IMG/VR virus record: IMGVR_UViG_3300023297_000111
Location: 1-21,033 of that record
Length of the DNA: 21,033 nucleotides
Reading direction: 5' to 3' (one strand)
Source: a virus
Shown here: piece after piece, positions 3,770-18,156 of the stretch
How positions within the stretch are numbered: position 1 is the stretch's first letter
How the letters are laid out: each line of letters begins with the position of its first letter
Notes under the pieces: generated by a model
What the model was told of the DNA's origin: nothing
The model's database searches: none
The model's input: the letters and a program-made list of their open reading frames with translations, nothing else
Position numbers and translations under genes: made by a program

Positions 3770-4264
3770 CTATTTACGTAATGCCTTACTTATTTTTTCT
3801 CTTGTTTTCTTAGAATGTTTAAATCCAGTCTTTAAATCGGTATTTGTTCTAGCTTCTAATCCTAGTTTTTTAAATCTATCATATATTGCTGATTTTGATT
3901 TAAAACCAAAAAAGTCTGCTATTTTTTTATAATCCCACTTCTTTTCATAATATAAATTTTTCATTAATTCCAAATCAATTTCTATTTTATTAGCCCCGGG
4001 TATTCCATGAAGTTTCAAATGTGCCTTCTGTGTCATTAACATAAGATTTTCTATTCTGTTGTCTGAAGGATTGTTGTTTAAATGATGCAATATTAAGCCT
4101 TTTTGTATTTTTCCAAATTTCTTCTCCCACAAGTATCTATGTTCTAAATATTTTTTACCTTTAATCTCTATGCACCTATAACCATCTTTATTGATAGTTC
4201 CACCCTTATAATTATGTGGTCGTTTTCCATACATTATATTTTCTTTTCCGGGTTTGAATTTCAT
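3770..4264 (-). CDS. Free-standing HNH homing endonuclease
   Basis: A 164-aa protein with the HNH fold used by homing endonucleases. The core runs from LEHRYLWE through GLILHHLNNNPSDNRIENL to KAHLKLHG, giving the paired His and the Asn of the HNH motif. After it come a helix-turn-helix-like DYKKIADFFGFKS and a C-terminal Lys-rich GFKHSKKTREKISKALR of NUMOD3 type, which usually contacts DNA. It is inserted between the portal-MuF and protease genes, likely as a mobile gene. I chose the ATG at 4264 because a TTTTAAAA box is centred about 26 nt upstream; an ATG three codons further up would be only 17 nt from it. Confidence 0.8.
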   Translation of the reverse strand: MKFKPGKENIMYGKRPHNYKGGTINKDGYRCIEIKGKKYLEHRYLWEKKFGKIQKGLILHHLNNNPSDNRIENLMLMTQKAHLKLHGIPGANKIEIDLELMKNLYYEKKWDYKKIADFFGFKSKSAIYDRFKKLGLEARTNTDLKTGFKHSKKTREKISKALRK

Positions 4265-4286
4265 AAACAACATAAGAAATCTATCC

Positions 4287-4304: not shown

Positions 4305-7300
4305 TTATTCAGAACTGATACTATCTTCTTCTTTTTCTAAAAACAGCAAAACAGAACGGCATCTGGGATGTGAGGGAGGACTTTGTCCAGACCAATCCTT
4401 ATAATGAAAGTCTTCGTCTAGTCCGACTATCTGACCATCTAAATGCTTACAAATATCTGAGGTTCTGTCATCATGTGCGCTCAACCATTGTTTTTTCATA
4501 TCCAATCCAGAACCCTTCATTGCTAGTAGTTTTCCTTGATTTTCTGCTCTTCCGACTTCTGTTATAGCTATAATTTCGGCCCGATTATCTCCTACGTTGA
4601 ATACTTTTGTCACTCTTGCTTTTAGCTTTGTTACCCCTTCCCCGTTGATTATTCCTCTGCCTAATTCGGCTTTTAGGTTGTTTGCTATTTCTTCTGTCAT
4701 TCCCTTTACATTATCGAACGTGTGGTCTTGTAAAAACTGAACTGCATTGTTATTCATTGGGATATTCTTGTCTATTTGCTTCTCTGAGGTGTCCCATCCA
4801 AATTGAAAGTTTACTTTGATGACTTCGTCTACTACCTTTCTAAATGTGAAAATCTCAAATATCTTCTTAATGATTCTTGGCAAATCGTCTATTCCCTTAA
4901 TCTGTAGTAATTGTTCAGGCTTGCCTTGTTCTTCTAGTAATTCGAACACCTTCTTTTTATTGACCTTTAGGAGGTCTGTGATGTTCTTCTTTAGCTTCTT
5001 CTCGGATGGACTTAGTTCTTCTCCTGGTCCTAGTGTGTTTGGTGAGTCTGAGGTTGATGCCTTCTTGACATCCTTTGGCTTATCTCCTTTAGCCGGCTTG
5101 CCTGTCATCTTGTCACGATTGTTTGCGCTATCCCTATTGATTTTGTCTGCGTCCTGTTGTCGGGGATCCCCTACGTTTATGTTCGTTCCCTGATTTGGAC
5201 TTCTCTCTCCAACATTCTTGTCACCCCATTCTACATCATCTAATCCTTCTGCGTTACGCACTTCGTTGATTGTCTTAAGGTCTGATTCGGTCTGCAACTT
5301 GTATAATCCCCACTTCTTTGTTTCTTCGTCTATGTCAAATATCTTGTATTTGTATCTTACACCTTCAACTCCAAACTCCGGGATGATTTCCGTGTTGACG
5401 TGGTATTCGATTAATCTTAGTAAAGGGTAGATGATTCGTTTCTTTGCTACGCTTGTCTGTACGATTTGGTTTGCGGATCCTTTTGCATCTTCTGTGTTAT
5501 AATGAATACCTACCTTTCCATTTCTACAAGTAATGAATGGTCTGTTTCTTACGCTTGGACACCACATTGTTCCAGTATATTTTTCATTAAATCTTTGAGT
5601 AGATATAACAACTCTTGGTTCTTTTTGCGAAATATTAACATTAAGTTCATAGGTTTTATTCCATTTTGGGTTATCAAATTCTCTTTCGTAAATAGAAGCC
5701 TTATATCCTAATTTTAAACATATTTCAAACACATCCTCAATTAATCTCTTACTACTGGATGAATAATTAAATGAATCTTCCCCTTCCCTTCTTGAACCAT
5801 CTCCAGATACCAAGGCATCTAATAATATTCTTAATTGTGGCTTTGGTAAATTCTTTATTTCTTGTGGAATATGCTTTTCTAAGCTTCCACCAAATCTACT
5901 CAAATAAAGGGCTAGAGATTTATTATTAAGTGTCCAGCAAACCTTTTCTCTTCTGAATCCCATTTTTTCAGCTAATGGTTTCATAATTTTAATACCCTCT
6001 GGTTTTACTTGTGCTATTTTAACATGAAATTGTTTTCTTTCTCTCATCTTCTTTAATACAGAACCTTCAGACAAATAATAACCTAAAAATTCACACCATT
6101 CATCTATATTAAAAGTTGTTTGTTGATATCTTCCCTTATCTTTATTGTTTTCATATTCTACTAAGGGTATGTTGATTTCATCTAAATATTCCCCTTCCCA
6201 CCCCAGTCCTCCTTGTAGAAATTTAACCGTATCCACATCTATTTCATTCGAGGGACTACATTTATATTCTTCTTTTTTAGGAGTCCTATAATACATTCTG
6301 TGATTATCGCTAACTAGAACATCTACACAATTATTTTTATAAAAATGAAAGTTTCTATCTTTAACGTCAAATGTATGAATTTTATCTGGTTTTATATATT
6401 CTATTTCTTTTTGATTTATTATGGTGGCAATTTTATCATCTTCTTTAATTTCCCAATAATATTTGAGTCCGTTGTCTGTTAAAACCTGTGTATCATCTGA
6501 ATAACAAAATCCTAGTTCTGTGGCTGTAATCCCGAAGGCTCCCCACACTAGCTTTGACCACCACTTCTGGCTTTCGATAAGTTCTAGCTCCTGGTTTGTG
6601 AATCCTAATCTCTCGAACTTTGGCATCTTGTTAACCATTGGGAGTTTGTGATTCGCTCTCTTCCAGTTACCCAGATCGTCCTGCACCTTTTGCTGCTGAA
6701 TCCACTGTTGTCCGAACGCTGTCAAATCCTCACTACTCATCCCTTCTAATCCCAAGACTCCTGGAGGGATTGAGTTGTCGTTGAAATATTCGAGTTGACT
6801 CTCCACTGCGTAGATTAATGTCTGAACCGTCTTTGCCAAAACTTCCATACTGCTTCGGCCATATAAATTGTCGGTCCTAACTTTCTTCTCAAACCACACT
6901 ACCTCTCGCCTTCCGAATGGGATTGGTCTGGCGCCTGTGTTGAATCCGTATTGGAAGTACGCGCCCTCTTCATGCGCATCCTCAGCCGTCATCTCTGCTT
7001 GGATTGCCGGATATTCCATTGTTTGGGTTTGCTCTTCTCCTTCCCCAAGAATGTTCTTCATTAAAATTAAGTCTGCCCTAGTCGTGTAAAATCCATAAGG
7101 ATCGGGATTCTTTGTGAATGCCATTCCATCCCTTGCGCAAATCTCAACCATCTCTCCAAACATGTTAAAAATCTTCACCATGACTCCGGAGTTAAGTTCT
7201 AGTAAATCTGGCAACATCATTCTCACAATCATTTCCCATGACTCTTTGTTTGTGTTTGGGTTCTCGAAGAAGTCCTGCAATCTCTCAACATCTGCATCCT

Positions 7301-7688
7301 TTCCTGGTACTTCGTTTCCTGCTCGGTCCTCTGCTACGATTTCATATTGAATCGAACACACCTCATCGATGATTGCTGTCACACACATATCCACATAAAT
7401 TGAGGCTGCTAGTTGTCTGTAATAATTAAGGTCTTTATATCTTGGATATCCGAATGGTGCTCGGTAGAAAAAGTTTGGAATGTATGCTTTGGGTTGGCCG
7501 TCTCTCGTCTCTTCGTAAACGGTCACTGCATTGCTTCTAGTTGGTTTTGGGTTGCCGGTTGCTTTGTTGTATGGTCCTATTGATTGTCTTGTGTGCTGAT
7601 TTGCTTGCTGGCCGAATGGTTGTAGAACTGATTTACTACCCGTTTCCCAAGGGCAGTTTGAAAATATTGAGGCTGATTTTCTTTCCAT
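4305..7688 (-). CDS. Portal protein fused to MuF-type minor head domain, with intein
   Basis: An 1127-aa precursor; the host protein is about 790 aa after splicing. Residues 1-394 plus about 732-830 form the portal: early YKDLNYYRQLAASIYVDMCV, the ELNSGVMVKIFNMFGEMVEI strand pair, a REVVWFEKKVRTDNLYGRS segment and a long helix with AVESQLEYFND, followed by the late ITATELGF/TEDAKGSANQ joint. The portal is the dodecameric channel at the packaging vertex. A Lys/Pro/Gly linker (about 850-915) leads to a C-terminal domain like Mu gpF/SPP1 gp7: AIAITEVGRAENQG region, WLSAHDDRTSDICKHLDGQ and PPSHPRCRS. Portal-MuF fusions are known in phages. Residues 395-731 are an intein. No Shine-Dalgarno site precedes the ATG at 7688; a TATA box lies about 70 nt upstream. 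Confidence 0.88.
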   Translation of the reverse strand: MERKSASIFSNCPWETGSKSVLQPFGQQANQHTRQSIGPYNKATGNPKPTRSNAVTVYEETRDGQPKAYIPNFFYRAPFGYPRYKDLNYYRQLAASIYVDMCVTAIIDEVCSIQYEIVAEDRAGNEVPGKDADVERLQDFFENPNTNKESWEMIVRMMLPDLLELNSGVMVKIFNMFGEMVEICARDGMAFTKNPDPYGFYTTRADLILMKNILGEGEEQTQTMEYPAIQAEMTAEDAHEEGAYFQYGFNTGARPIPFGRREVVWFEKKVRTDNLYGRSSMEVLAKTVQTLIYAVESQLEYFNDNSIPPGVLGLEGMSSEDLTAFGQQWIQQQKVQDDLGNWKRANHKLPMVNKMPKFERLGFTNQELELIESQKWWSKLVWGAFGITATELGFCYSDDTQVLTDNGLKYYWEIKEDDKIATIINQKEIEYIKPDKIHTFDVKDRNFHFYKNNCVDVLVSDNHRMYYRTPKKEEYKCSPSNEIDVDTVKFLQGGLGWEGEYLDEINIPLVEYENNKDKGRYQQTTFNIDEWCEFLGYYLSEGSVLKKMRERKQFHVKIAQVKPEGIKIMKPLAEKMGFRREKVCWTLNNKSLALYLSRFGGSLEKHIPQEIKNLPKPQLRILLDALVSGDGSRREGEDSFNYSSSSKRLIEDVFEICLKLGYKASIYEREFDNPKWNKTYELNVNISQKEPRVVISTQRFNEKYTGTMWCPSVRNRPFITCRNGKVGIHYNTEDAKGSANQIVQTSVAKKRIIYPLLRLIEYHVNTEIIPEFGVEGVRYKYKIFDIDEETKKWGLYKLQTESDLKTINEVRNAEGLDDVEWGDKNVGERSPNQGTNINVGDPRQQDADKINRDSANNRDKMTGKPAKGDKPKDVKKASTSDSPNTLGPGEELSPSEKKLKKNITDLLKVNKKKVFELLEEQGKPEQLLQIKGIDDLPRIIKKIFEIFTFRKVVDEVIKVNFQFGWDTSEKQIDKNIPMNNNAVQFLQDHTFDNVKGMTEEIANNLKAELGRGIINGEGVTKLKARVTKVFNVGDNRAEIIAITEVGRAENQGKLLAMKGSGLDMKKQWLSAHDDRTSDICKHLDGQIVGLDEDFHYKDWSGQSPPSHPRCRSVLLFLEKEEDSISSE
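5496..6506 (-). mobile_element. Portal intein (337 aa) with in-frame LAGLIDADG endonuclease
   Basis: Residues 395-731 of the portal precursor. The N-splice junction is ELGF|CYSDDTQVLT with Cys1. Block B is LVSDNHRMYY with the conserved His. Two LAGLIDADG helices are visible, FLGYYLSEGS and LLDALVSGDGSR, with the acidic residues in place. The end reads GTMWCPSVRN, then RNGKVGIHYN|TEDA, with terminal Asn and +1 Thr. The penultimate residue is Tyr rather than His, as seen in other phage inteins with a variant block G. Removing it rejoins ITATELGF to TEDAKGS, a continuous portal sequence. Unlike the two terminase inteins, the endonuclease is in the intein frame. Confidence 0.9.
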
Positions 7689-7789: not shown

Positions 7790-10700
7790 CTATTCTACGA
7801 GAATCCTCCCATTAACCATTCGAACTTCTTTGCCATCGACTACCTTTGTTGTTATGCCTCCTTCTCCAAAAACTTTTAATTTGTTATTTTCCTCGATGGT
7901 GTCAATTGGATCCGTAAAAACCCACGCCGATTCGTTTGGGTTAATCTCAAAATACATTCTCATCATTAAGCAATTAGAAACAAGAATATCATTAGCATAA
8001 TAACAATGGTCTTTTTGAACCTTTAAATCATAAACGTCTATTTCCCCACATAAGCTTAGCAGCACAACTTCTTGAACAGCATTTGGTTGAGTCTTGTTTT
8101 TTGACGCTGAATTCTTTTCCGCAGTATAAACAATTTCTTCTTTCAAAATATCTTTTTTCTTTATACTTTGCGTTTTGAAAACATTTGTTTGAGCAATATT
8201 TACCGCATTGGTGTACACTTTTGTCAATAAATTCTTTTTTACAGAATTCACATATTTTTTTAATGTTTTTGATATTTTGTTTTGCATGAATCCTTTGATG
8301 TTCCGATGATTCAATGATTGTAAGATTCTTTGGATTATTATTGAAATGGTTTCCGTCAATATGGTGAACCGAGTATCCTTTAGGGATTGGTCTTCCTGTT
8401 GAATCCTCATAAACTCTTCTATGCAATGCTTCGATTTTTCCATTTCTTTTCTTGTAATAATATCTTCCACTGGATAAAAGCCTGTATCTTTCTCCTTTGT
8501 AAATAATCTCTTTATTCTCCATTTTAATAAATTTTTTGTGTTTAATATCTCTCCTTTGTACTCTCTCATCTTAAGGGCTTTAACCTTTTTAAAACTATCA
8601 TTTAGATAAATCTTGTGATTTGGTGTGCAATAAATTTCCTTACCATTATTAAATTTTATTTTTACAATTTGCTTTGATTTCTTCCTTTTTACTTCTAAAA
8701 CTTTCCTGCTTCCATATGGAGTTATTACCTTTTCTCCAATATTAATATCCTTAATGAATTTATATCCATTTGTGGTTAATACGTTGGTATTTCCTACCAG
8801 ACAATCACCTGCATCCGTTGACCTGCTAAGTGCGGCCGAGTCATGAAGCTCTTTCTTTGTTATCACTCTCATCTTCGCATCTTTGTCTGAGTCCATTTGC
8901 TTCATGACTTCTAAATCCTCAATAATTAATTCTTTGATGTTGATTGGCAGCTCCCTATAAATTCCAATCATCCCAGAGTTAACATGGTTTGCTAATTCGA
9001 ACCAACACTGGCTTCTTAGGTTCTTGTAATTGTCCAGCCCCTCATCATCCGTGCTTTGCTTCTTTTTCTTTAGTGGCGCCGCGTTTGCTACGAATCCGAT
9101 AATCTCCGGCATTTCTTTCTTCAATCCGAACCCCACCCCAATCTCATCCACTAGGCAATGACTTCTTGGGATTGTTCTGCTTGTTAGTATCTCATCCAAC
9201 TCACTACTCGACAGCCCTTCTGAAAATTGTAAAAGCTCAGTAATAAATAACCCATCCCAAATCGACACCATGCAACTATCCCTTCCGAATCCTGACTGGT
9301 CCACTATGCAATACTTCTTTCCTCGCTTGGCCTCATTTGTGAATAAATCAACGATTGAGTCGTAGTTGAATATCTTTGTTGGATCATCATCATACTCCCA
9401 ATTCCCATTCAACAATCTCTCCCGGTTCTTTTTGTCTAGCTTCTTCAAATTCTCGATATAATGCACTGAGATAAATGGGTTGTCGTAAACACTCGCCGGC
9501 ACGTATGCTTTGAAGGGTTCGAGTTCGTTGTCTCGCCACTTCTTATAAAAATCTCTATAAATAAAAGTCTTACAAGGATTGCTCCCCATCCCAATCTTTG
9601 GGATTAATCCGAACTCATCCAACTTGAACCTCATACGACTTCGAATGATTTGGTACGCCTGTTCAGTAATGTCACCCATCTCATCAATAAAGCCGTCAGT
9701 ATACTCGGTCGAACCAAGACTTACAAACTCAGGGTCACTTGGATATAAAAATAAGTCCTTAAGATATTCTTCGCTTCCATTCGAGAAGGTGATATAAGAT
9801 GCCTGAGCATTGTAATTATAGTCTATACCCATTTGTAACCCCATTTTACTCGCAACTTCAAAAAATGTCAAGAGTGTTGATGCTTTCAAATCTTTAAGAC
9901 GTGCTCTCGCGAGAAATCCTCTGGAACCTTTATACTTCAATCTTCGTTTAATTTGCCAATAACATCCTGTAAAACTTTTCGAGTTGTGAATAATTATCCC
10001 ATTAGCCAAAACATAGGATTCGTTCTCTGTTTCAATATCATACATTGGTTCATTTTGCCAATAAAATCTAATCTCTAAAATATCATTTAAATTTATTTCA
10101 CATGCTTCCAACTTTTTCTTATTATAATGTCCTTTATACAACTTGGTTTTACTCCGTACTCCACTGCCAACTTCTTTCTCCCGTATTTCCTCGGGATGAA
10201 TTTCTCCCTTATCTCTTTTACCTGTTGCTCGGTTAGTTTGCTCATTCCGTTCTGACTCCCTGGCTTCCTTTGAAGATTTGCTCGATTCCCTACATTCTCC
10301 ATAAATGGGTTCATTCTTCCTAGTTTCTCCGCATGATGGAAGTTCTCCTTTCCAGTCATCCATTCTAGATTTTCTATTTGATTGTTTCGTTTGTTGAGAT
10401 CTTTGTGATTTACTTCTGGTTTGCTTTCCGGATTCGGAATAAATGTTTTGGCTACTAATCTGTGAATTTGTACGCCTTCCTTTCCTGTATTTAAAACAAT
10501 AGTTGTTCTCAAGTAACCCTTCTTTGTTATCCCGGGGTTCATTATCATAATCTTTCCAGAATTTTTCCAATTGATTGTCTTTAATCTCCCTTTGTTGCTT
10601 ATCAAATACCGACCATTCGTTTCTTTTACTTCTACCCAATACTCCTCTGGCAAGTTCTCCAATCTCAACCCATTCTCCATCAAATAAGAATTTATGCGCT

Positions 10701-11011
10701 TGTGTGAAGTTGATTTTTGTTCCATCTTTTAATTTTAACTCTATACATCCAACGGAACCACCATTTATAAAAGTTTCTAACACTGGCTTATATTCCAGAA
10801 TATTCTTTTTCTTATTAAAAGTAAGCACAATTTCACCTTTTTTAATATCTTTTAGAAACCTTTCCCCTAGGGTAGTGGTGGTTCTGACCTTAGTTACACC
10901 AACTCCGCAACCACCGGCTGCGCCACCCATAAAGATTTCTGTGTGTTCATCATCATCTAGAGTATTAAGGATCTCACTTTGCTTTTGGCTTAAGGTTATT
11001 TTTCTTATCAT
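7790..11011 (-). CDS. Terminase large subunit (TerL) with two inteins
   Basis: A 1073-aa precursor; the spliced protein is about 487 aa, a normal TerL size. It is the packaging motor: ATPase plus headful nuclease. Walker A is GGAAGG|SKSF, split by intein 1 after residue 34. Walker B is FIDEMGD near 441-447. The nuclease shows CIVDQSGFGRD (first Asp), CLVDEIGVG (second acidic site) and the last Asp in STDAGD|CLMM, split by intein 2 after residue 736. The gene starts inside the end of the small-terminase gene (38-bp overlap), so the two are coupled. TerL is inactive until both inteins splice, because each interrupts a catalytic motif. The region of each intein between its splicing halves is also an HNH gene in another frame. 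Confidence 0.93.
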   Translation of the reverse strand: MIRKITLSQKQSEILNTLDDDEHTEIFMGGAAGGCGVGVTKVRTTTTLGERFLKDIKKGEIVLTFNKKKNILEYKPVLETFINGGSVGCIELKLKDGTKINFTQAHKFLFDGEWVEIGELARGVLGRSKRNEWSVFDKQQREIKDNQLEKFWKDYDNEPRDNKEGLLENNYCFKYRKGRRTNSQISSQNIYSESGKQTRSKSQRSQQTKQSNRKSRMDDWKGELPSCGETRKNEPIYGECRESSKSSKEARESERNEQTNRATGKRDKGEIHPEEIREKEVGSGVRSKTKLYKGHYNKKKLEACEINLNDILEIRFYWQNEPMYDIETENESYVLANGIIIHNSKSFTGCYWQIKRRLKYKGSRGFLARARLKDLKASTLLTFFEVASKMGLQMGIDYNYNAQASYITFSNGSEEYLKDLFLYPSDPEFVSLGSTEYTDGFIDEMGDITEQAYQIIRSRMRFKLDEFGLIPKIGMGSNPCKTFIYRDFYKKWRDNELEPFKAYVPASVYDNPFISVHYIENLKKLDKKNRERLLNGNWEYDDDPTKIFNYDSIVDLFTNEAKRGKKYCIVDQSGFGRDSCMVSIWDGLFITELLQFSEGLSSSELDEILTSRTIPRSHCLVDEIGVGFGLKKEMPEIIGFVANAAPLKKKKQSTDDEGLDNYKNLRSQCWFELANHVNSGMIGIYRELPINIKELIIEDLEVMKQMDSDKDAKMRVITKKELHDSAALSRSTDAGDCLVGNTNVLTTNGYKFIKDINIGEKVITPYGSRKVLEVKRKKSKQIVKIKFNNGKEIYCTPNHKIYLNDSFKKVKALKMREYKGEILNTKNLLKWRIKRLFTKEKDTGFYPVEDIITRKEMEKSKHCIEEFMRIQQEDQSLKDTRFTILTETISIIIQRILQSLNHRNIKGFMQNKISKTLKKYVNSVKKNLLTKVYTNAVNIAQTNVFKTQSIKKKDILKEEIVYTAEKNSASKNKTQPNAVQEVVLLSLCGEIDVYDLKVQKDHCYYANDILVSNCLMMRMYFEINPNESAWVFTDPIDTIEENNKLKVFGEGGITTKVVDGKEVRMVNGRILVE
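8028..8522 (-). CDS. HNH endonuclease nested out of frame in TerL intein 2
   Basis: A 164-aa protein on the same strand as terL, but two bases out of its frame. It opens with RYYYKKRNGKIEALHRRVYE and the HNH core PKGYSVHHIDGNHFNNNPKN, then ESSEHQRIH. Two Cys4 zinc knuckles follow: CEFC...CGKYCSNKC and CLYC...CCSRSC. It therefore looks like an intact HNH homing endonuclease with two zinc fingers for DNA contact. The gene begins after block B of the intein and stops right where block F begins. No Shine-Dalgarno site sits before the ATG at 8522, but an archaeal TATA-like box is centred about 22 nt upstream. It is likely to cut inteinless terL alleles and drive spread of intein 2; that role is inferred. 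Confidence 0.85.
   Translation of the reverse strand: MENKEIIYKGERYRLLSSGRYYYKKRNGKIEALHRRVYEDSTGRPIPKGYSVHHIDGNHFNNNPKNLTIIESSEHQRIHAKQNIKNIKKICEFCKKEFIDKSVHQCGKYCSNKCFQNAKYKEKRYFERRNCLYCGKEFSVKKQDSTKCCSRSCAAKLMWGNRRL
8541..8555 (-). promoter_or_regulatory. Possible promoter of the HNH gene inside intein 2
   Basis: Minus strand GGAGAGATATTAAAC, close to the GAAAGATATATAAA element found at 18157 and 19459. The box ATATTAAA (8548-8541) is centred about 22 nt from the ATG at 8522, near the leaderless spacing. It lies within intein coding sequence, so it could be chance in AT-rich DNA. Confidence 0.4.
10093..10725 (-). CDS. NUMOD4-HNH endonuclease nested out of frame in TerL intein 1
   Basis: A 210-aa protein on the terL strand, one base out of frame. 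The first ATG (10725) follows an in-frame TAA three codons upstream, so the gene cannot begin earlier; a second ATG at codon 16 is possible. Domains in order: NUMOD4-like LPEEYWVEVKETNGRYLISN with KGRLKTINW; HNH core IHRLVAKTFIPNP, VNHKDLNKRNNQIENLEW and ENFHHAEKLGR; and a C-terminal helix-turn-helix ending in EYGVKPSCIKDIIIRKSW. This is the full layout of free-standing HNH homing endonucleases. It lies wholly inside intein 1, between blocks B and F. A TATA box is 42 nt upstream. It probably mobilises intein 1 by cutting uninterrupted Walker A alleles; that is inference. Confidence 0.88.
   Translation of the reverse strand: MEQKSTSHKRINSYLMENGLRLENLPEEYWVEVKETNGRYLISNKGRLKTINWKNSGKIMIMNPGITKKGYLRTTIVLNTGKEGVQIHRLVAKTFIPNPESKPEVNHKDLNKRNNQIENLEWMTGKENFHHAEKLGRMNPFMENVGNRANLQRKPGSQNGMSKLTEQQVKEIREKFIPRKYGRKKLAVEYGVKPSCIKDIIIRKSWKHVK
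10764..10779 (-). promoter_or_regulatory. Possible promoter of the HNH gene inside intein 1
   Basis: Minus strand AGAAACTTTTATAAATGG. The TTTATAAA box (10771-10764) predicts a start near 10742 and a leader of about 17 nt before the ATG at 10725. The string AGAAACTTTTA is shared with the promoter of the HNH gene at 3770-4264. It also codes for intein residues. Confidence 0.45.
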
Positions 11012-13331: not shown

Positions 13332-13751
13332 TTACCTCCATTTTTTTTTGTTTAATTTTCCTGAAAATGTATCTGTAGTTTTATGACACTCTTTACAGAG
13401 TGTTCTTCCATTATCTATAGCAAATCTTAATTCTGGGAATAAGGCGAATGGTTTGATGTGGTCTGCATTTAAGTTTCCACCTCTTTGCCCACAAAATCTA
13501 CAAGTCCAATTATCTCTTTTAAATACCGCTTCTCTCCATAATCTATATTCCATAGAATTTCTTATTTTTATATTTTTAGAAGATATTCCACCTTTCCAAT
13601 TCCAATGTTTATTCCCGCTTTGTAATTTGTGTCCTTTTTTAAAGCCATTTTCAATACTCTTAGGATTGTATCCTTTATGTTTATAACTCTCCTTCCTCTT
13701 AAGTGATCGTTCTTTCTCTTTCTCTTTTCTATGATATTTTGCGTAGGGCAT
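13332..13751 (-). CDS. HNH endonuclease with Cys4-type HNH core
   Basis: A 139-aa protein. The N-terminal third is very basic and includes a NUMOD3-like GFKKGHKLQSGNKHW segment. The HNH domain shows CRFC near residues 84-87, the catalytic ADHIKPF near 97, and LCKECHKTT near 118, giving two CxxC pairs that hold a structural zinc. I chose the ATG at 13751 because GGAGGTG precedes it. It overlaps the winged-helix gene by 23 bp and ends just before the coiled-coil gene, so it may be a homing-type insertion between two regulatory-unit genes. Confidence 0.8.
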   Translation of the reverse strand: MPYAKYHRKEKEKERSLKRKESYKHKGYNPKSIENGFKKGHKLQSGNKHWNWKGGISSKNIKIRNSMEYRLWREAVFKRDNWTCRFCGQRGGNLNADHIKPFALFPELRFAIDNGRTLCKECHKTTDTFSGKLNKKKWR

Positions 13752-14124
13752 TTTCACCTCCCTTCTCAGTTTCTTCAATTTTACTAAACTCGCAGCATTC
13801 CTGTGGACTCCTTGTTAAATTAACAGCCGTCAACTCTATATCACTCAAGACTCCATTTTTGTTGTTATGATAATTTTTCTTAATCTCCTTTAAAAGTTTG
13901 ATCTGCGATTTGCCATAGTCTGTAAGTGTGATAACAATTTCCTTCCCGCGCTTTCCATCTCCTTCGGTTTTGTTGACTATGTTTGATCTTGCCCACCTGG
14001 ATATTAATGTTGATGCAGCACTCAACGCCAAATCACAACGTTTTGCTAACTCAGAAATATTCCTAGGCTTTTTTGAAATCTCAATTAAGAAATTCATATT
14101 TTTTTGATTAATTATCTCCAACAT
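13729..14124 (-). CDS. Winged-helix (MarR-like) transcription regulator
   Basis: A 131-aa protein. Residues 8-75 form a winged helix: FLIEISKKPRNISELAKRCD, the recognition helix LALSAASTLISRWARSNIV, and a wing with GKEIVITLTDYG. Such proteins bind palindromic operators as dimers. I chose the ATG at 14124 because GAGGT precedes it; it overlaps the previous gene by 13 bp. The tandem GTTCA-TGAAC repeats about 950 bp downstream are a possible target. The short acidic C-terminus overlaps the HNH start. Confidence 0.75.
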   Translation of the reverse strand: MLEIINQKNMNFLIEISKKPRNISELAKRCDLALSAASTLISRWARSNIVNKTEGDGKRGKEIVITLTDYGKSQIKLLKEIKKNYHNNKNGVLSDIELTAVNLTRSPQECCEFSKIEETEKGGENALRKIS

Positions 14125-17733: not shown

Positions 17734-18129
17734 CTAAGCTTTGATACCCCATGCTTTATTTTTATTTAACAAGTTTAATGTATTTTTAGACAACAACCTT
17801 CCTTCTTTATCCCTTTGTTTTAATAAATTTAATAACTCCTTAGCTTTTTGTTTTTTTACTATTAAGTGTGGAATCATGTCAGCAAGTATATTTTTCATTT
17901 CTTCTCTTTTAGCTATTATTAGTTCCCAGCAAGTATTCTCATTTTTCTTTTTTGAGATTATTCCACCATACCTTTTTCTTATTTCTTCTAAAACTTCTTT
18001 ATTTTGATTACTAACGCCTACTCTATAATAAATTGTAAATCCTCTTATCAATCTTTTATCTTTATGTTTTCCAAAAATTATACATCCTTCTCCATCTATA
18101 AATCCTGCAATATATTTTTTATCTATCAT
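17734..18129 (-). CDS. Free-standing LAGLIDADG homing endonuclease
   Basis: A 131-aa protein with one LAGLIDADG helix, YIAGFIDGEGCI near residues 6-17, followed by a beta-rich FTIYYRVGVSNQNKEVL, the RYGGIISKKK strand and a C-terminal WELIIAKREEMKNILADMI helix. One-motif enzymes act as dimers on near-palindromic sites. I chose the ATG at 18129; AGGTG lies just upstream and a TATA box is centred about 31 nt upstream. A GTG three codons earlier is possible. It heads the methyltransferase unit, so it may be a mobile insertion there. Confidence 0.85.
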   Translation of the reverse strand: MIDKKYIAGFIDGEGCIIFGKHKDKRLIRGFTIYYRVGVSNQNKEVLEEIRKRYGGIISKKKNENTCWELIIAKREEMKNILADMIPHLIVKKQKAKELLNLLKQRDKEGRLLSKNTLNLLNKNKAWGIKA

Positions 18130-18156
18130 CTTACACACCTAAGTAGATGGTGTTGG

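Follow-up and report, generated by a model that had tools for sequence, protein, structure and literature searches.

Where does a mobile intein keep its homing endonuclease, and could the two be separate proteins written on the same bases? In textbook inteins, the endonuclease is an in-frame domain of the intein itself. The question is raised by a 21,033-nucleotide stretch of viral DNA (IMG/VR record IMGVR_UViG_3300023297_000111, positions 1 to 21,033; we call this whole stretch the window), in which the gene for the large terminase subunit (terL, encoding TerL) carries two inteins and each intein carries, out of frame, a gene for an HNH protein. An earlier note on this DNA had described the arrangement in intein 1, and that description stands; it overlooked the second HNH gene, which lies in the same way inside intein 2. 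We hold it to be very probable that both inteins are mobile and that the homing endonuclease of each, overprinted on the loop of the intein, is produced as a protein of its own. The parts are these:

7790..11011, minus strand: TerL precursor open reading frame (ORF) of 1073 amino acids with two inteins (Pfam Intein_splicing and Hint families, TIGR01443 at two places)
9983..10909, minus strand: intein 1, in the Walker A loop, 309 amino acids, GGAAGG/C...IIIHN/SKSF (slashes mark the junctions), with Cys1 and TxxH
10093..10725, minus strand: HNH1, a NUMOD4-HNH gene of 210 amino acids lying over intein 1, in the +1 frame relative to TerL (Pfam, I-HmuI match, codon test)
8804..9982, minus strand: middle TerL extein, 392 amino acids matching cultured TerL at 39% identity
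7973..8803, minus strand: intein 2, near the TerL C-terminus, DAGD/C...VSN/CLMMR (TIGR01445/TIGR01443, Intein_splicing)
8028..8522, minus strand: HNH2, HNH_3 with two CxxC pairs, 164 amino acids, lying over intein 2, in the -1 frame relative to TerL (Pfam, family alignment)

What does the TerL frame itself encode? The bounds given earlier for intein 1 are exact, its Cys1, TxxH and IIIHN/S blocks are all in place, and C1, T69xxH72, H308 and N309 are invariant across 12 homologues. Profile matches to solved inteins are confined to the two ends (profile residues 1-113 and 271-311), and an AlphaFold2 (AF2) model is confident at residues 1-90 and 271-309 (predicted local distance difference test, pLDDT, 83-92) and unfolded at residues 91-260 (pLDDT about 30-50). 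The model matches mini-inteins in Foldseek, with the Ssp DnaB mini-intein at the top. A Hint fold is found in both TerL inteins, by AF2 and Foldseek in intein 1 and by Pfam and NCBIfam in intein 2. Neither intein has an endonuclease match to Pfam or NCBIfam profiles in the TerL frame, as had been claimed for intein 1, and neither is a standard large intein with an in-frame homing endonuclease. Nor is this a fractured gene with a split intein: the window's terL is one open ORF of 1073 codons. The suggestion that the DNA came from an archaeal virus found no support, and we have rejected an archaeal host, since the nearest cultured TerL proteins (39% identity) come from phages of Bacteroidota.

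The endonucleases appear one base over. The complete HNH gene that the earlier note had placed at 10093-10725 carries NUMOD4 and HNH_3 domains, both above their Pfam cut-offs, and a profile match to I-HmuI (1U3E) with an E value of 5e-16; its identity rests on that match, since the AF2 model of HNH1 is poor (pLDDT 57, from an alignment of five sequences). HNH1 spans residues 62-273 of intein 1, its first codons overprinting block B and the rest sitting at the usual nuclease position of inteins. Judged by their domains (NUMOD4 with HNH_3 in HNH1, HNH_3 with paired CxxC in HNH2), both genes would encode homing endonucleases of the I-HmuI group.

Could a frame lying over such a gene be open by chance? 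For HNH1, we kept the protein and its codons, permuted the codons 20,000 times and counted stops in the intein frame: 10.9 are expected, none is seen, and 0/20,000 permutations were open, in line with the rough 4e-5 estimated before. The same permutation on the homologues L004, L010 and L005 had the same outcome. The third frame over HNH1 holds 32 stops, and the longest open run in the alternate frames of ten other window genes is 61 codons. When close HNH1 pairs were simulated under HNH constraint alone, each pair gained 6.5-9.3 stops and 0/200 simulations stayed open; for an HNH2 relative at 74% identity, 4.7 stops would have arisen. Permutation and simulations together rule out chance openness over HNH1. 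We also looked for homologues with one frame broken by stops, the check proposed at the outset, and found both frames open at 77, 81, 62 and about 50% HNH identity.

Which of the two frames, then, is the constrained one? Between the window and L004, substitutions fall 35/32/78 on HNH codon positions 1/2/3, and the HNH-frame products share 77% of their amino acids where the intein-frame products share 54%; this third-position excess and the higher HNH-frame identity mark the HNH frame as the constrained one, just as had been supposed. In fits, w for HNH is 0.02-0.4, and strong conservation of its amino acids extends to homologues at about 50% identity. The information is therefore carried by the HNH frame; the intein frame is held open, with slight further constraint. 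An assembly or sequencing error that shifted an ordinary in-frame HNH intein out of frame has next to no chance of being the answer, and we found nothing in its favor: a single indel would fill one frame with stops, whereas dozens of independent assemblies, and annotated complete phage genomes as well, have both frames open for 160-210 codons. That openness and the permutation test refute it.

If these are mobile elements, they should have moved, and intein 2, for one, has. Intein 2 is 100.0% identical over 834 nucleotides between the window and L010, L011 and L012, which are contigs from other samples, while the TerL exteins of the same pairs are only 72-78% identical. The disparity recurs in other relatives (intein 2 versus exteins: 92% versus 68-70% in L014, 90% versus 76-78% in L015 and 80% versus 51-54% in L016). 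An identical intein in diverged exteins is a signature of homing, which implies that the hidden nuclease HNH2 was probably at work recently. For intein 1, the search for inteinless homologues that the earlier note had called for turned up exact empty sites in L011 and L014. Along terL and downstream of it, L010 and L011 agree at about 97-99%; intein 1 is in L010 and a precise empty site is in L011, so that near-identical genes differ by the exact presence or absence of the element. The bases beside that site differ between the intein-bearing and the empty copy (ggtggt/tcg versus ggggga/agt), which suggests either co-conversion or resistance to cleavage.

One might still regard the HNH genes as remnants, no longer made into nuclease and persisting as a frame because TerL must stay open. 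Decay of this kind is what the homing cycle predicts, and the window copies have no start signal, yet we consider the idea most improbable: openness of TerL gives HNH codons no protection, their amino acids are nonetheless strongly conserved, and intein 2 moved recently.

How widespread is the arrangement? Our survey was pattern-based and seeded from the two HNH families, so its figures are matches listed and not population frequencies. HNH2-type loci lie out of frame inside a longer ORF in 55/74 of the matches listed (family alignment, public contig collections), and HNH1-type loci in 15/79 of the IMG/VR matches listed. Once near-copies are removed, at least 59 distinct out-of-frame loci remain, nearly all of them inteins in TerL; dozens of phages unrelated to one another thus share the arrangement. 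Intein_splicing is matched by 48/50 HNH2-type host ORFs, and nearly all of these hosts are TerL. The relative frame is identical in all HNH1-type loci and divides 52 versus 3 in HNH2-type loci, again among matches listed. By contrast, in 67 distinct free-standing relatives, the ratio of observed to expected stops is 0.97-1.07 in both of the other frames. Complete or cultured genomes with the arrangement are those of Acinetobacter phage Highwayman, Tetrasphaera phage TJE1 and Rhodobacteraceae phage LS06-2018-MD07, in each of which the host gene is annotated only as TerL and the HNH gene is hidden; no clear example of the Walker A type emerged from a search of cultured phages. One contig (IMGVR_UViG_3300043399_001031, loci L127 and L056) encodes a divergent TerL that, much like the window's, holds two inteins, each with its hidden HNH. 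The arrangement is not confined to terminase, because locus L101 (2962-5184) is a DnaX/RFC-like gene with an intein and an out-of-frame HNH.

This preference for terminase raises another thought, that the HNH protein might be a packaging cofactor for terminase, like HK97 gp74, and no homing endonuclease. Nearly all host genes are TerL, free relatives adjoin terminase genes, and HNH packaging proteins do exist, to go by the passage of PMC10448857 that cites Kala et al. 2014, which would support such a view. We think it quite unlikely all the same. A cofactor does not account for the NUMOD4/HNH_3 architecture and the I-HmuI match, for patchy presence in near-identical TerL genes and horizontal transfer of intein 2, or for the DnaX-like host of L101 and a split intein in yet another ATPase (L141).

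How would a gene hidden in this manner be translated? Initiation of HNH1 at 10725, proposed earlier, is doubtful, since codon 5 of the homologue L114 is a stop; the start may instead be one of the two downstream candidates. The TTG with its GGAG is kept in 4/5 close HNH1 relatives, the window included. The candidates are these:

10725, 10680 and 10668, minus strand: possible starts of HNH1, respectively ATG, ATG, and TTG with GGAG 6 nucleotides upstream

Of the 68 out-of-frame loci, 25% combine an ATG in the HNH frame with a Shine-Dalgarno-like tetramer; the other frames reach 4% and 0% (Fisher 8e-7), and the 26% of free-standing HNH genes with such a start is level with the HNH-frame figure. 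The excess in the HNH frame makes independent initiation the better guess, and the HNH is likely made separately, as its own protein.

The other route would be programmed ribosomal frameshifting out of the TerL frame, which would fuse the N-extein and N-intein to HNH. HNH2 loci call for a -1 shift, a slippery heptamer (A_AAA_AAT) that L015 and L016 retain lies 15 nucleotides ahead of the first ATG, and productive-phase heptamers near the junction reach 3.5 per kb versus a background of 1.1. By our own reckoning, however, heptamers are equally dense inside the HNH gene and at the junction, so that composition explains them, and we have rejected the junction excess as a frameshift signal. A slippery heptamer is present in just 16/44 loci, and HNH1 loci would require a +1 shift with HNH-frame stops just upstream. 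We regard frameshifting as unlikely.

Several points weigh against overprinted, separately made endonucleases, and they belong together here. The openness over single HNH2 loci is weak evidence: in the window, 2.3 stops are expected in the intein frame over HNH2 and none is seen (P 0.025 alone), and single loci in general give P 0.01-0.025. Survey loci were classed as out of frame by their lack of stops, so their zero stop count is not independent evidence; that part is played by the intein matches and by the bimodal contrast with free-standing relatives. No Shine-Dalgarno sequence stands at the first ATG of either window HNH, and most other loci are the same. Finally, the architecture is known here from sequence alone, with splicing, expression and cleavage predicted.

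With this in mind, we imagine the following cycle. Translation in the TerL frame would yield a precursor from which the Hint halves, in intein 1 some 95 and 40 residues long, would excise themselves, restoring TerL; the loop of 160-200 residues between the halves would be an unfolded linker whose sole role is to stay free of stops. One base over, the same DNA would encode an entire HNH homing endonuclease, whose translation probably starts internally on the shared mRNA. The nuclease would cut intein-less terL close to the insertion point, and repair would copy the intein and the nuclease gene in together.

How did they get their start? The nearest free-standing relatives of HNH1 (L119, L120, L122-L124, L129, L130 and L164) all lie directly upstream of terL genes that have no intein at Walker A, and presumably near their target. 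Most free HNH2 relatives lie between terL and the portal gene; those of PAE1, FBPa53, EauM-23, Poludnitsa and BL3 (a partial match) are directly downstream of terL, near the other insertion site, and that of Acinetobacter phage BP10 is upstream of terS. Highwayman's hidden HNH and the free BP10 gene share 50% identity; BP10 TerL is annotated as 469 amino acids and aligns weakly to Highwayman TerL. A third form is seen at L141 (172-2056), a predicted fractured gene in which a RecA-like ATPase has a split intein (GRPT/C...HN/CGKSQ) and an HNH1-type gene lies between the halves. Free, between-halves and overprinted forms are thus all found in one nuclease family. In the HNH1 tree, out-of-frame genes fall nearly together (2 changes); in the HNH2 tree, they are mixed with free-standing ones (7 changes, weak support). 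We infer that the free form came before the overprinted one. The likely origin, then, would be a free HNH gene beside terL, already cutting terL, that settled inside the loop of a mini-intein occupying its target site.

These elements resemble several known systems and coincide with none of them. Fractured genes and collaborative homing come closest as ecological parallels (PMC10448857). As in fractured genes, which Dassa et al. (cited in PMC10448857 and PMC8228797) are said to have described in 2009 as split inteins whose halves flank a free endonuclease gene, an endonuclease gene lies between intein halves in phage hosts and would have a separate product; in fractured genes, however, the host gene is split and splicing is in trans, whereas the window's terL stays one ORF. 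I-HmuI is likewise a NUMOD4/HNH nuclease, but one encoded in a group I intron, and Rfam found no group I or II intron in the window. The in-frame HNH intein of the cyanophage CL131 dCTP deaminase, for which splicing has been shown (PMC6293099), also has HNH_3 between Hint halves, where inteins normally carry an endonuclease. That endonuclease is read in the intein frame as part of the excised protein, whereas the TerL inteins have theirs as a second gene sharing their DNA. Collaborative homing pairs a free HNH gene with an adjoining intron-bearing gene (PMC10448857), much as the free-standing HNH genes adjoining terL may serve the terL site; the window's HNH genes differ in lying inside the element, and its splicing element is an intein. 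The origin route that we have sketched would be the endpoint of such collaboration.

The nearest earlier report is of an insertion that is not an intein. The ShiLan domain and the Pacc40 insertion carry an out-of-frame HNH without a splicing domain (Arsenault, Gosselin, Gogarten 2025, PMC11855218), and they share with the TerL elements an HNH off the host frame, a host frame that is open, patchy homing-like spread and an uncertain start site. The ShiLan insert lacks a splicing domain of either intein or intron type and is believed to remain in the methylase, whereas the HNH of the TerL elements lies between canonical intein halves, and their hosts are mostly TerL; Intein_splicing and Hint matches around the HNH in the window, and the Intein_splicing matches in those 48/50 HNH2-type host ORFs, set them apart from ShiLan-type insertions. 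Our literature search, with most subscription journals outside its reach, turned up no description of an intein whose endonuclease lies in a different frame, and priority is unproven.

What might this mean? Here, splicing and mobility would belong to separate proteins that share the same bases, a design that recurs across dozens of TerL lineages, with no fewer than two HNH families and two relative frames involved. We think it likely that such mobile inteins are widespread and long-lived, with entanglement of a selfish gene and an essential one purging indels and nonsense mutations in either frame and so slowing the usual decay. They offer natural and readily cloned cases for how a homing endonuclease gene first joined an intein, and they bear on how hidden HNH genes (ShiLan's included) get translated and on whether sequence entanglement preserves selfish genes. 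Surveys that call inteins without an in-frame nuclease “mini-inteins” may be overlooking active ones.

The rest of the window adds to the picture of its mobile elements. The ORF at 4305-7688 (minus strand) holds a portal domain together with a Phage_Mu_F head-morphogenesis domain, as well as an intein that serves as a comparison. The remaining features are these:

5496..6506, minus strand: portal-protein intein with LAGLIDADG_3 in frame, the ordinary architecture
3770-4273, minus strand: HNH_3/NUMOD3 gene, homing-endonuclease-like
13332-13778, minus strand: HNH gene, homing-endonuclease-like
17734-18138, minus strand: LAGLIDADG_1 gene, homing-endonuclease-like

Together with the two hidden HNH genes, the portal intein and these three further genes make six homing-endonuclease-type elements in 21 kb.

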